Position numbers and translations under genes: made by a program. From positions 1,936,001-2,000,000 of the forward strand of contig NZ_CP047050.1 of assembly GCF_009799805.1 (NCBI RefSeq): a stretch of 64,000 nt of DNA, written 5' to 3'. The notes below the pieces were generated by a model. It was not told the DNA's origin. It saw only the letters and a list, made by a program, of their open reading frames with translations, and ran no database searches. Of this stretch, positions 8,910 through 31,572 are shown piece by piece (position 1 is the stretch's first letter; each line of letters starts with the position of its first letter). The DNA comes from Myroides phaeus (GTDB taxonomy: Bacteria > Bacteroidota > Bacteroidia > Flavobacteriales > Flavobacteriaceae).

Positions 8910-9043
8910 ACTAACGACGGTCAAGTATAAGCGTAGTGCGGGATTTCGGAGCGATTCATTGTCCACCTGCACCAAACTTTGATAGATGCCAAAATACTCA
9001 ATTTTAGCCACTCAGCCCGCATTACGCTTATACAATGTTGTAG
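8910..9043 (-). repeat. attC-like site 1 (distal end of array)
   Basis: Left core ACTAACG (8910-8916), arm GTATAAGCG / CGCTTATAC (8925-8933 / 9025-9033), bulge, arm TGCGGG / CCCGCA, right core GTTGTAG (9037-9043). The right core GTTGTAGG is the reverse complement of the left core of site 2 (CCTACAAC), across a 3.5-kb four-gene unit. This is the last attC before the mob module. Confidence 0.8.
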
Positions 9044-9079
9044 GTAGTGCTTTCTTTTTCGTCCGTGCGTTGGGGAAGA

Positions 9080-9137
9080 CACACTTATTGACAAGCTTAG
9101 GATTGTGCGGCTGATTCGAGCGGCTTGGCAATGTGTG
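9080..9137. repeat. Secondary palindrome inside the four-gene cassette
   Basis: CACAC + TTGACAAGC (9080-9096) pairs with GCTTGGCAA + GTGTG (9123-9137). It shares motifs (GTCCGTGCG, AGCGTTGGCTTTG) with 12310-12400 at the other end of the same cassette. It may be a relic of an older recombination site. Confidence 0.4.
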
Positions 9138-9206
9138 TGGCTGTCGAGCGTTGGCTTTGATATTAATGTCAATAGACATAATCCGAGGCTTTATTTTAGA
9201 CGTTTA

Positions 9207-10496
9207 TTAATCTTTGTTTCGGGATTTCAACTTTAAAGCAATTGAATGCCAAATCAAACCAACACCTAATAATGCAAGACCACCAATCCAAAAAGTGGGT
9301 TCAATCCAAAAGGCGAGAAACAGACATCCAAATAAGCCAAAAGCGGGAATCCAACGAGGATATAAGCGTAAGTCCGCAGGCATTCTCAGAGCCGCTAGAT
9401 TAGTAATAGCGTAATAAATCAATACTGTAAACGCACTGAATGACCAAGTAAAAACAACATCTCCGCTTAACACCAATACTCCAATTATACCTCCTGTCAC
9501 CCAAACAGCTACAGCGGGACTTTGAGTTTTGTGATTTATTTTGGACAATTTAGCAGGCAGGTCTTTTCTCCGTGCCATACTAAGAATTACACGCGACAAA
9601 CCAAGCAGTAAATTAAGCACTACTCCTAACATAGCAGTAATGGCAGCAATAGTGATTACAGAGCCAATAACAGGTACTGAAAGTGACTGAGCAACTAACA
9701 TCAATGGCGCTGCTTTTCCCTCAACGCTTAGACCAAATGCTTCCGCTCCCATAACATTTATCGCTGTAAGTGAAACGGCAAGGTAGAGTATTACAATAAT
9801 TACCATTGCAAGAATAATGGCTTTGGGAATTGTAGTACGTGGTTCGGAAACCTCTTCCCCGAGTGTTGCAATTCGCCCATATCCGGTATATGCGACAAAC
9901 ATTAAAGCTGACCCATAGAGAATTGATGTAATAGAGGTGTCTTTTACAGAGTCAACAATTGGTTGAACAGGAAAGCCCTTAACAAAGAAACTGACAATTA
10001 CGAGTGCAGCAAGTCCTAATAAGGTTGCAGAAACAATAATTATATTGGCCTGATTGCTTCGCCTAATACCACCGGAAACAAGTAATGTCATCACAAAAAG
10101 TAACAAAAGTCCGGCTCCTACAATGCCCACATTGTCAGCGTTTACACCAAAAGCATAAAATAGGTAGCCTACACACCCTAATACTGCGGTTGCAGCAGAC
10201 GCTGATTTTGCTATCAAAAACATCCATCCTGCAGCAAATCCAAAATAAGAGTTTAGAAAGCGGTTTCCATACTCATATGTGCCTCCACTCACCGAATGTG
10301 CAGCAGCAAGCTGTGCACTGCTTAAACCATTGAAAGCTGCAAGTACAGCAGCGATTACCACTGCGATAATAATGCCACTACCTGCTATCTGGGTAGCAAT
10401 GGCTATACTTACAAAAATGCCTGTCCCTACGATTGAACCCAAACCCATTAAAATGGCTCCTGGTGTTTTTAGTTCTCGTTTTAGTTCGTTTTCCAT
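9207..10496 (-). CDS. APC-family amino acid permease
   Basis: A 429-residue membrane protein with about 12 hydrophobic segments. It opens with the family signature ELKTPGAILMGLGSIVGTGIFVSI (glycine-rich first helix that binds the amino-acid backbone), and APC-like GLSSAQLAAAHSVSGGTYEYG follows. It is predicted to import or exchange an amino acid or amine; substrate unknown. It is the last gene of a minus-strand operon araC-cytochrome-doxX-permease within the most distal, largest cassette. It is not a known resistance gene. Confidence 0.85.
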   Translation of the reverse strand: MENELKRELKTPGAILMGLGSIVGTGIFVSIAIATQIAGSGIIIAVVIAAVLAAFNGLSSAQLAAAHSVSGGTYEYGNRFLNSYFGFAAGWMFLIAKSASAATAVLGCVGYLFYAFGVNADNVGIVGAGLLLLFVMTLLVSGGIRRSNQANIIIVSATLLGLAALVIVSFFVKGFPVQPIVDSVKDTSITSILYGSALMFVAYTGYGRIATLGEEVSEPRTTIPKAIILAMVIIVILYLAVSLTAINVMGAEAFGLSVEGKAAPLMLVAQSLSVPVIGSVITIAAITAMLGVVLNLLLGLSRVILSMARRKDLPAKLSKINHKTQSPAVAVWVTGGIIGVLVLSGDVVFTWSFSAFTVLIYYAITNLAALRMPADLRLYPRWIPAFGLFGCLFLAFWIEPTFWIGGLALLGVGLIWHSIALKLKSRNKD

Positions 10497-10498
10497 TT

Positions 10499-10927
10499 TT
10501 AATTATTATTTTGAAATGTCGAGTCAAGCGACCATTTTCCACCACCTTTAATTATCAAAAACAGACTTCCTAAAAGCATTGCCCAATCGGTGCGGCTACC
10601 GTGCATCATTACCCAAAATCCGTCATTGACTAAAATTTCTGATTTTGTAGTAGCAATGGCAACCAACATTATTACGAGTGTTGGAACACTTGCCAATCTT
10701 GTCAGCAAGCCAAGTAAAATCAACGCACCACAAACAATCTCAAACGTGCCGACAAAAGCACCGAGAAATTCCGGTGACGGAAGTCCGATTTTTTCAAATC
10801 GTCCCGCACCACGAATAGCAGGAAATAAGAATTTTTGAATGCCTTCCGAAAGGAAAACCGCACCGACCATTAAGCGAATAATGATGGTGGTTTTTGAATA
10901 GTCTGAACTAATTATTTTTTGAAACAT
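10499..10927 (-). CDS. DoxX-family membrane protein
   Basis: A 142-residue protein with four hydrophobic segments and the DoxX pattern (RLMVGAVFLSEGIQKFLFP near the N-terminus, then FEIVCGALILLGLLTRLAS). DoxX-like proteins are inner-membrane proteins tied to redox or thiol-stress functions. I start at MFQK (10927); the frame is open further upstream but that part overlaps the cytochrome gene. The gaps of 2 bp on each side imply one operon. The cytochrome-like lipoprotein upstream supports a redox theme. Confidence 0.85.
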   Translation of the reverse strand: MFQKIISSDYSKTTIIIRLMVGAVFLSEGIQKFLFPAIRGAGRFEKIGLPSPEFLGAFVGTFEIVCGALILLGLLTRLASVPTLVIMLVAIATTKSEILVNDGFWVMMHGSRTDWAMLLGSLFLIIKGGGKWSLDSTFQNNN

Positions 10928-30197: not shown

Positions 30198-30237
30198 TTA
30201 TCAATGTTTAACTGTTATGCTGGTATCTTTCACAATG

Positions 30238-30304
30238 CCCGCTAACATCTGTTTTAACGAAACGAATATACGGAAAATTTCGCTTAACCAACCCTTTATG
30301 TGCC
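30238..30304 (-). repeat. Degraded attC-like site 14 (second tet(X) cassette)
   Basis: Left core CCCGCTAAC (30238-30246), stem TTAACGAAA / TTTCGCTTAA, right core TTTATGTGCC (30295-30304) where G of the usual GTT is T. It is short (67 bp) and weakly paired. The right core still pairs with GGCACATAAC at 31493. The string ACAATGCCCGCTAA is shared with site 11's left side. Confidence 0.55.
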
Positions 30305-30317
30305 GTTTTATTCCATT

Positions 30318-31484
30318 TTATACATTTAACAATTGCTGAAACGTAAAGTCGGGTTTAAACATTTCAATTTCGTTTTGAGTTGATTCTTCTTGTGCTTCTT
30401 TGCCATAGATAAACATTTGCTGTTCATAATTTTTAACAGCCTCTTCAATGCTATTAAATTTTCCATCGGCTAGATTATCAGACAATATCAAGGCATCCAC
30501 CAACCCACTATTTACTCCCTGCCCTGCAAAAGGCGGCATCAAATGTGCGGCATCCCCAATCATTGTTATGGGTAATGGGCGCTTGCTTTTCCAAGGCTTT
30601 TCTAAAGGAAATATCCGTGTAGCCAATCCTACAAATGACAACGTCGTATGAATCAATTCTTTGTAGCGTTCGTCCCAATCGGAAAATTCTTTCAGAAGAA
30701 AATCAACGACACTATTTCTGTTTTGAAAATCTACCTGCGTTTGGTTTTTCCATTCATCAGGTGTTTTAAAACTTATTCCAAAATGCAATGCACCATTATT
30801 ATTGGGGTTAGCAAATAATAAATTACCTTGGTGAGATGCCATTAGCCGGTTTCCATTGCATAGCTGAAAAAATCCAGGACAGTTTATCTCTGGTTGATGA
30901 ATATCGGCTTGTATATTGAAAGTACCTGTTTCTTCAACTTCCGTGTCGGTAACAAATTTTCTTACCTTGGACATCCCGCCATTGGCAAGAATAACCAAAT
31001 CTGCTGTTTCACTCGGTTTATTCTCAAAAGTTAGTGTCCACTTCTTCTTACCAGGTTCAAGCATAACAAGTTTTCTATCCCAAATAACCGTGTCGTTTTC
31101 TAAACTATTCAACAAGATAGCCCTTAAGTCATTTCTGTTTATTTCAGGATTGTCAAATCGATTTTCGGGCTTTACATTTTTTGTGGATAAAATATTGCCT
31201 TTTTCATCAGCAATATTTACACCCATTGGTAAGGCTAAGTCATAATAAGTTTGTAACAATCCCGCTTTTTTCATTGCTTCCTGACCTGAACCTTTGTGTA
31301 GGTCAAGGGTTCCACCAAAAATTCTTGCCTCTCGGTCGTTGTCTCTTTCGTAAACTGAAACGTCTATGCCGTTTTGCTGTAATAATTTTGCCATAGTCAG
31401 TCCAACGGGTCCACCACCAATTATTGCAACGTTCTTATCACTAAGTAAATTCATTTGTTTGTCTGTATCTATTCGCATTGTCAT
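30318..31484 (-). CDS. tet(X): Tet(X)-type tetracycline monooxygenase (Tet(X2)-like)
   Basis: A 388-residue FAD-dependent monooxygenase that agrees with Tet(X2) as I remember it, including the N-terminal MTMRIDTDKQMNLLSDKN. FAD motif VAIIGGGPVGLTMAKLL; GDAAHLMPPFAGQGVNSG near 300. It inactivates tetracyclines by C11a hydroxylation, needing oxygen. As the cassette nearest the recombinase and attI candidate, it would be the most recently inserted by integron logic. Canonical orientation. Confidence 0.95.
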   Translation of the reverse strand: MTMRIDTDKQMNLLSDKNVAIIGGGPVGLTMAKLLQQNGIDVSVYERDNDREARIFGGTLDLHKGSGQEAMKKAGLLQTYYDLALPMGVNIADEKGNILSTKNVKPENRFDNPEINRNDLRAILLNSLENDTVIWDRKLVMLEPGKKKWTLTFENKPSETADLVILANGGMSKVRKFVTDTEVEETGTFNIQADIHQPEINCPGFFQLCNGNRLMASHQGNLLFANPNNNGALHFGISFKTPDEWKNQTQVDFQNRNSVVDFLLKEFSDWDERYKELIHTTLSFVGLATRIFPLEKPWKSKRPLPITMIGDAAHLMPPFAGQGVNSGLVDALILSDNLADGKFNSIEEAVKNYEQQMFIYGKEAQEESTQNEIEMFKPDFTFQQLLNV

Positions 31485-31492
31485 TCAAAAAT

Positions 31493-31572
31493 GGCACATA
31501 ACATTGTTATTTCACGAAATAAAACACGGTGTAGTTTCGTAAAATAACACCTATATGCGCATTTCGTAAAAT
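31493..31572 (-). promoter_or_regulatory. attI-like primary recombination site candidate
   Basis: Left core GGCACATAAC (31493-31502) closes the tet(X2) cassette. Beyond it lie ATTTCACGAAAT (31509-31520), TTTCGTAAAAT (31535-31545) and ATTTCGTAAAAT (31561-31572), spaced about 25-27 bp: one inverted and two direct versions of one motif. No attC-style long palindrome is present. Position between the first cassette and the divergent recombinase gene is that of attI with its direct repeats. Confidence 0.7.

Follow-up and report, generated by a model that had tools for sequence, protein, structure and literature searches.

A probable integron-like cassette platform beside a non-IntI tyrosine recombinase in Myroides phaeus

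Palindromic sites and the pairing of their cores

We analysed a window of 64 kb from the genome of Myroides phaeus (the whole stretch studied, 64,000 nucleotides; contig NZ_CP047050.1, positions 1,936,001 to 2,000,000). Between 8.9 and 31.5 kb it holds an array of genes separated by long imperfect palindromes. Most of these genes confer antibiotic resistance; the others include genes for a permease, a DnaJ-domain protein and regulators. An attI-like site closes the array; it lies 168 bp upstream of where a divergent gene for a tyrosine recombinase of 279 aa begins (31671..32510, plus strand), the proposed cassette integrase. We think that the array forms an integron-like platform carried by a mobilizable element, in which a tyrosine recombinase other than IntI would join cassettes at the attI-like site and at folded sites, and we put the probability of this reading at about 0.87. 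An earlier sequence-only reading had proposed an integron-like cassette array in a mobile element, and core pairing, cassette-precise exchange and co-localisation with the recombinase support it. New beyond that reading are the recombinase, the attI-like site, the minus-strand direction of the array, the assignment of the left site to each gene, another copy of the element in the same genome and the absence of the IntI additional domain.

There are 13 sites in the array. Read from AAC to GTT on the plus strand, they are s1 (8913..9039), s2 (12424..12550), s3 (13515..13641), s4 (14532..14655), s5 (15561..15746), s6 (17195..17382), s7 (18219..18344), s8 (19514..19640), s9 (20512..20636), s10 (21468..21591), s11 (22689..22825), s12 (22852..23039) and s13 (23876..24000); s5, s6 and s12 have a long form. 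Core pairing and a covariance model (below) support all but s11, and a blind structural scan supports all but s2 and s11; s4, s5, s6, s9 and s12 are supported by comparison between loci as well. The blind scan covered the whole window and looked for AAC, a spacer of 2–8 nt, an ungapped stem with a score of at least 10, a spacer of 0–5 nt and GTT, over 55–260 bp. It returned 12 non-overlapping matches. Eleven are sites of the sequence-only reading, and the remaining one, at 13760, is a chance hit inside a gene; s2 (12424) and s11 (22689) are under the stem-score threshold. Chance palindromes were rejected as an explanation, since dinucleotide shuffles of 8401–32600 (n = 100) yield a mean of 0.16 hits (maximum 2) against the 12 in the window.

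One sign of a cassette system is that the right core of each site is the reverse complement of the left core of the next. From the first junction to the last, the matches out of 10 are 10, 10, 10, 10, 10, 10, 9, 10, 9, 8, 4, 10 and 10, where the 13th junction joins s13 to the attI-like site. Eleven of 13 junctions thus pair at 9–10 positions. The summed match is 120/130, while permutations have a mean of 78 and a maximum of 113, and none of 200,000 was as high. A site's own two cores match at only 3–9 of 10 positions. The sequence-only reading had named core pairing by chance in shuffled DNA as a refutation of its claim; in the 100 shuffles all core matches stayed below 7. The two cores of one unit are complementary, which is what a former circle, closed at its core, would leave behind.

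The weak junctions flank s11 and a gene-less hairpin of 29 bp that follows it up to 22851. Site s11 is degenerate: AAT replaces AAC, its right junction is unpaired (4/10), and the covariance model misses it. The description of the sites as palindromes with AAC...GTT cores is confirmed, with s11 as the exception; the other 12 fit one model. The final junction is split by 7.5 kb of DNA with two tet(X) genes, ISCR2, floR and estT.

Gene-less hairpins of 27–33 bp between complementary cores are found in the window (22823–22851) and, near attI or sites, at loci L031, L034, L037 and L051. They are perhaps minimal gene-less cassettes.

The covariance model was trained on 29 sites, nine from the window and 20 from other loci. 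It recovers 12 of 13 window sites, including the three sites of 186–188 bp outside the training set; the other recovered sites are 124–127 bp long. In the 3.1-Mb genome it finds 17 sites, 12 in the window and five in the second copy of the element, and none elsewhere at E ≤ 0.01. The arms covary, with two-sided changes at 18 of 23 predicted pairs (29 sequences). They reach about 18–20 bp, and most positions pair via three or four Watson–Crick types among 41 sites. The spacer measures 5–7 nt on the left and 1–3 nt on the right in 40 of the 41, figures that are partly built in because most of the sites in these counts were preselected by stem score and by just these spacer lengths; a wider scan gave the same values. 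The lopsided spacer that the sequence-only reading had noted also emerges from the blind scan (5–8 nt left, 1–3 nt right). Two entries were left out before the arm and spacer counts: a site of L022 in reverse orientation and a match of L017 that lies in coding sequence. Of the unpaired features of attC sites, a central spacer and extrahelical bases, a spacer is present; the scan was limited to ungapped arms. No Rfam family is assigned to the sites at gathering thresholds.

Pairs other than Watson–Crick are polar: there are 53 with G on the left and T on the right against four with T on the left and G on the right. At least one G·T wobble is present in 33 of 39 sites, mostly 10–14 bp into the arm. 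The stem would therefore contain wobbles when one strand folds and A·C mismatches when its complement does, an asymmetry that could possibly serve as a strand mark. Strand preference by folding energy was rejected, as the plus strand is stabler in five of nine sites and the minus strand in four.

Core pairing does not decide whether a gene's own site is the one to its left or the one to its right, and we therefore compared loci. One comparison includes loci that duplicate each other's sequence; from the count given here overlapping short loci and L145 were excluded, and its 69 pairs of loci with the same gene are not independent. The left site was kept and the right one changed in 51 pairs, the reverse occurred in none, both were kept in 13 and five were intermediate. 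With 51 against 0, a mobile unit made of a gene and its right-hand site was rejected. By this comparison of sequences the gene travels with its left-hand site, and the unit on the minus strand is core, gene and site, as in integrons. From the recombinase, the order on the minus strand is the divergent recombinase gene, attI and then units of core (GTT), gene and palindromic site. Core-paired intervals number 110 across all loci. Two chromosomal arrays elsewhere have all the open reading frames found facing the usual way, 25 of 25 in L131–L132 (where four intervals have none) and seven of seven in L148.

Both ends of the shared stretch lie within 4 nt of AAC in 10 of 15 pairs; in the other five the similarity extends into alike neighbours. 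Neighbouring sites are exchanged precisely even when about half of their bases differ. A fixed gene order without cassette-precise change would have spoken against the sequence-only reading, but the comparison shows cassette-precise gains and losses. One could also argue that there is no site-specific system at all, and that homologous recombination or insertion sequences act between similar terminator palindromes. ISCR2 is present in the window and the palindromes are intergenic, as this explanation would have it. However, the units end at the core AAC and not within the palindromes, neighbouring sites are exchanged precisely despite differing at about half of their positions, the two cores of a unit match though the surrounding sites do not, and the integration published for another species, as described in PMC13148043, required no flanking homology. 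We regard this explanation as scarcely credible.

The recombinase, its attI-like site and their spread

The attI-like site (31493..31577), supported by core pairing and by comparison between loci, consists of the core GGCACATAAC at 31493–31502 followed by repeated TTTCACGAAAT / TTTCGTAAAAT motifs. Judged from its sequence, this junction sits next to the recombinase gene and appears to join the first cassette. We searched 31 loci that have related recombinases and found an AAC in the expected place in 26; in 25 of these it lies 165–169 bp upstream of the recombinase start, while the one at 192 bp (L015) is probably spurious. In 13 of the 26 loci the core preceding this AAC has its pairing partner in a recognised site no more than 8 kb away. 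By eye, three types of attI block can be told apart: AAC followed by ATTGTT, AAC followed by ATCTGTTTTAACGAAACG, and AAC followed by AC.(C/A)AAAT, the last at 144–193 bp in six chromosomal loci. The catalytic residues R-K-H-R-H-Y are kept in 29 of 29 family recombinases; in the window protein the catalytic tyrosine is Y261. A Chryseobacterium plasmid (L094) has an unusual layout, with a 45% identical recombinase and three 140-bp repeats with the common core ATTTTTCCCAAC next to model sites.

Sites and recombinase occur together well beyond the window. In 32 loci, each centred on a recombinase of at least 63% identity, there are 75 model sites, spread over 25 of the loci; all share one orientation, and 74 of the 75 lie 5' of the recombinase. 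In 30 site-rich genomes, chosen for strong sites, a family recombinase is found at E ≤ 1e-39 in 28. In at least 19 genomes it has sites no more than about 10 kb away, two of these recombinases being a pseudogene and a fragment. The sequence-only reading had suggested building a model from the palindromes and searching Bacteroidota genomes, and in other genomes the sites indeed adjoin related recombinases. Of 18 further regions that we examined, 17 were chosen around their recombinases. Recombinases at least 60% identical to that of the window are far rarer than the sites (2 of 395 genomes). Bacteroidota are regarded as nearly devoid of integrons, yet at E ≤ 1e-6 our one site model has matches in 145 of 296 Bacteroidota genomes, and in 163 of 395 genomes of the order of the window. 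The arrays can be large: chromosomal array L131–L132 has 43 model sites on 34 kb beside its recombinase.

In the mechanism we propose, the tyrosine recombinase would join circular gene cassettes at two kinds of place, namely the attI-like site upstream of the recombinase gene (by 168 bp) and the folded sites that the cassettes themselves carry; the point of exchange would lie within the AAC/GTT common to the cores. We infer that the neighbouring recombinase is the cassette enzyme; its substrate would be the folded single strand, and circles would be the cassette intermediate.

It could be that the cassette system is real but run by a host Xer protein or by an unseen recombinase, with the neighbouring gene a mere passenger. 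This would agree with some arrays that have no recombinase nearby and with the integration in Riemerella anatipestifer, which was published with no enzyme named in the account given in PMC13148043. On the other hand, the recombinase, an attI-like block at a fixed distance and a one-sided, one-way array co-occur in many loci of several lineages, and the attI-like block varies with the recombinase lineage. Another enzyme is therefore improbable in our view.

Several observations weigh against an integron-like platform run by the neighbouring recombinase. Some arrays in plasmids and genomes lack a nearby recombinase, among them arrays on R. anatipestifer plasmids whose records have no annotated tyrosine recombinase, and two of the 30 site-rich genomes (G227 and G396) have no close relative. 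Seven of the 32 recombinase loci are without a site, six of them having less than 2 kb of upstream sequence. In one clade (L135, L138, L142, L147 and L148) the recombinase gene is reversed relative to the array, and no attI was identified in these five loci. Sites also turn up outside Bacteroidota: ten model sites in a Desulfobulbaceae metagenome-assembled genome (L065 in G689), owing to either transfer or mis-binning, and, at E ≤ 1e-6, weak clustered matches of 83 bp in 2 of 149 Bacillota genomes (G741 and G818). In the window, four of the ten cassettes tested have their gene on the opposite strand and six face the usual way (minus strand), and the first cassette (3.5 kb with several genes) is unusually long. 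Folding energy, as said, picks no strand.

Comparison with IntI integrons and Xer proteins

The window shares much with integrons: a divergent tyrosine recombinase, an adjoining attI-like site, an array of cassettes made of a gene and a palindromic site, complementary cores within a cassette, precise cassette exchange, and the existence of large chromosomal and small mobile forms. It could be taken for an ordinary integron whose divergent IntI and ordinary attC sites were missed by annotation. Several results stand against this. All 11 proteins tested score 170–215 bits with the IntI model TIGR02249, below its cut-off of 265. The IntI insertion of about 40 residues is absent in 29 of 29 family recombinases, whose corresponding segment has 55–61 residues compared with 97 in 21 of 21 IntI proteins. 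The two groups are separate in a quick tree of the family with 14 Xer proteins and 14 of the 21 Desulfobacterota IntI proteins: IntI forms a clade of its own that excludes the new family, and the new family (support 69) is also apart from the Xer proteins. We claim no sister group for it because other recombinase families were left out of the tree.

The sites differ as well. The classical integron core has the consensus RYYYAAC / GTTRRRY. All 78 cores of the new sites start with GTTR, but only five match GTTRRRY. Unlike integron sites, those of the family are about 120–127 or 181–188 bp long; their arms are extended and marked by wobbles, and their spacer is lopsided. Around ten IntI genes (141 kb) the new site model reaches at most 21 bits, compared with 37–121 bits for accepted family matches. 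A scan for classical attC around ten IntI genes gave three matches on each strand, in two loci and with symmetric patterns, and is too insensitive to provide a standard of comparison. On the sub-cut-off scores, the missing insertion, the separate clade and the low site-model scores near IntI, an ordinary IntI integron was rejected, and we consider it very improbable. The system would work like an integron yet falls outside IntI, given the missing insertion and the cores unlike GTTRRRY.

Xer proteins are the other natural comparison. The window protein scores 202 bits with XerA_Arch (NF040815), below the cut-off of 220; of ten further relatives, five are above the cut-off and five below. In contrast to Xer and XerA, the window protein is under this cut-off, stands apart from Xer in the tree and is linked to cassette arrays.

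As far as the relevant passages of PMC9668308 and PMC2426708 go, intI genes are defined, or integrases selected, by the IntI additional domain. The corresponding part of the IntegronFinder 2.0 paper reports one complete Bacteroidetes integron (Salinibacter ruber), where earlier there had been only integrase genes without sites. Integrons such as the one proposed here would be invisible to any survey in which IntI and classical attC are required. In open PMC papers we found no earlier description of the site family, or of the recombinase as a cassette integrase, except that PMC13148043 mentions an attC-like fold. Should the neighbouring recombinase prove to be the enzyme, the IntI additional domain would be no general requirement for integrating cassettes.

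Resistance cassettes, their spread and the carrier element

Seen from the left, the array begins with the long cassette (8916..12426), which carries genes for an amino-acid permease, a DoxX protein and an AraC-type regulator. It is followed by cassettes with a protein that has an HNH/IscB-like C-terminus (a weak match; 12427..13517), with a DnaJ-domain protein and a small open reading frame (13518..14534), and with aadS (14535..15563), which travels with s4. These lie on the minus strand. The next three have their genes on the opposite, plus strand: ere(D) (15564..17197, travelling with s5), catB (17198..18221, travelling with s6) and erm(F) (18222..19516). Back on the minus strand are the cassettes of a class D beta-lactamase (19517..20514), of APH(3') (20515..21470), and of a rifampin ADP-ribosyltransferase with a MarR-type regulator (21471..22691). 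After s11 and the hairpin comes a second copy of catB (22855..23878, plus strand) with s12. The last unit, on the minus strand, is the tet(X) cassette at attI (23879..31502, with s13), interrupted by ISCR2-floR, estT and a second tet(X); here 31493–31502 pairs with 23998–24007. The GC-rich insert with ISCR2 (IS91 family) and floR, at 25.9–29.3 kb, interrupts the array here, on its tet(X) side.

Positions 30247–30293, which separate estT from the second tet(X), match the first 50 or so bases of the Sphingobacterium-type attI block (AAC followed by ATCTGTTTTAACGAAACG). Given this partial block, estT was probably once the first cassette on another platform of the same kind.

The aph(3')-IVb cassette connects the window to published experiments. 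In the account given in PMC13148043, R. anatipestifer ATCC 11845 takes up this gene independently of homology, and the inserted piece invariably includes 27 bp ahead of the gene and 140 bp behind it. The account, so far as it concerns the insertion, notes an attC-like fold, calls the mechanism not fully elucidated and names no enzyme. Together with the 789-bp gene this makes 956 bp. In the window the AACs at 20512 and 21468, which bound the APH(3') cassette that travels with s9, are exactly this far apart. Over this unit the window is 99.6% identical to the R. anatipestifer plasmid pRCAD0416RA-1, and PMC13148043 mentions that strain RCAD0416 carries aph(3')-IVb on a plasmid. The published insertion adjoins relE-hthR according to the same source, and on a plasmid (L090) a relE-hthR pair is followed by a model site at 11816–11952. 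We infer that the published insertion used such a site. Precise, homology-free integration in another species has thus been shown in print for one cassette, within what PMC13148043 reports. The integration of aph(3')-IVb, lnu(H) and blaRATA described there resembles the window in being homology-free and in involving a gene with a 3' palindrome; the account differs in that core pairing, attI, a recombinase and a wider family do not figure in its description. If our reading is true, it explains the homology-free uptake of resistance genes by Riemerella that PMC13148043 reports.

A second link concerns tet(X), a gene for resistance to last-resort drugs, which the array ties to a cassette system. 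A xerD gene beside tet(X14) in Empedobacter stercoris is mentioned in PMC7473080, where the same is said of tet(X3) and tet(X5); as far as that discussion extends, no integron or other mobile element was found there and the role of xerD was left open. As in the window, the recombinase in that report is divergent from the tet(X) gene. On the Acinetobacter plasmid p29FS20-1 (L092), a 44% identical recombinase has the same direction as tet(X5). If true, our reading explains what the xerD of PMC7473080 does beside tet(X). Most of the site of the tet(X) cassette, together with its start, is found in 13 plasmid records (Riemerella, Bacteroides, Sphingobacterium, Myroides, Empedobacter, Proteus and others). 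In E. coli, 140 of 5,426 genomes match, and in all 12 genomes among the matches listed the similarity begins inside the cassette core, at the same start, TTATGTGCC. On the E. coli plasmid pEC931_tetX (L173), tet(X4) meets the ISCR2 side exactly there, at 4001.

We consider it likely, though less so than the platform itself, that these systems are an integron class of their own in Bacteroidota, with a non-IntI recombinase, a different folded site, presence in about half of the genomes, and both mobile platforms and chromosomal arrays of dozens of cassettes. Resistance cassettes of the tet(X), estT, ere(D), aadS, catB, aph(3')-IVb and lnu(H) types would then be native to these systems, and the 'xerD' beside tet(X) would be their integrase.

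The platform lies inside an element (1684..32608) bounded by a 17-bp direct repeat at 1684–1700 and 32592–32608, the right-hand copy falling within a tRNA gene (32595–32679, minus strand). The element has an integrase (1819–3120) and a relaxase (7394–8308) of its own. Together with the repeats at the tRNA gene, these two genes are what characterises an integrative mobilizable element, and from these sequence features the carrier is predicted to be mobilizable. A second copy in the same genome (L089) is 99.9% identical in backbone and recombinase and has other cassettes inside. The similarity ends at ...ACTAAC on the left and restarts at AAC followed by ATTG on the right, which is the core AAC on both sides.

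To the right of the element, several imperfect tandem copies of a unit of about 95 bp (AAGGCAATGCA...CTCATAAA) were seen by eye at 33660–33980, 3' of an acetyltransferase-like open reading frame. Finally, two equal-scoring copies of the Bacteroidales small SRP RNA lie 0.4 kb apart, at 41556–41662 and 42075–42181.

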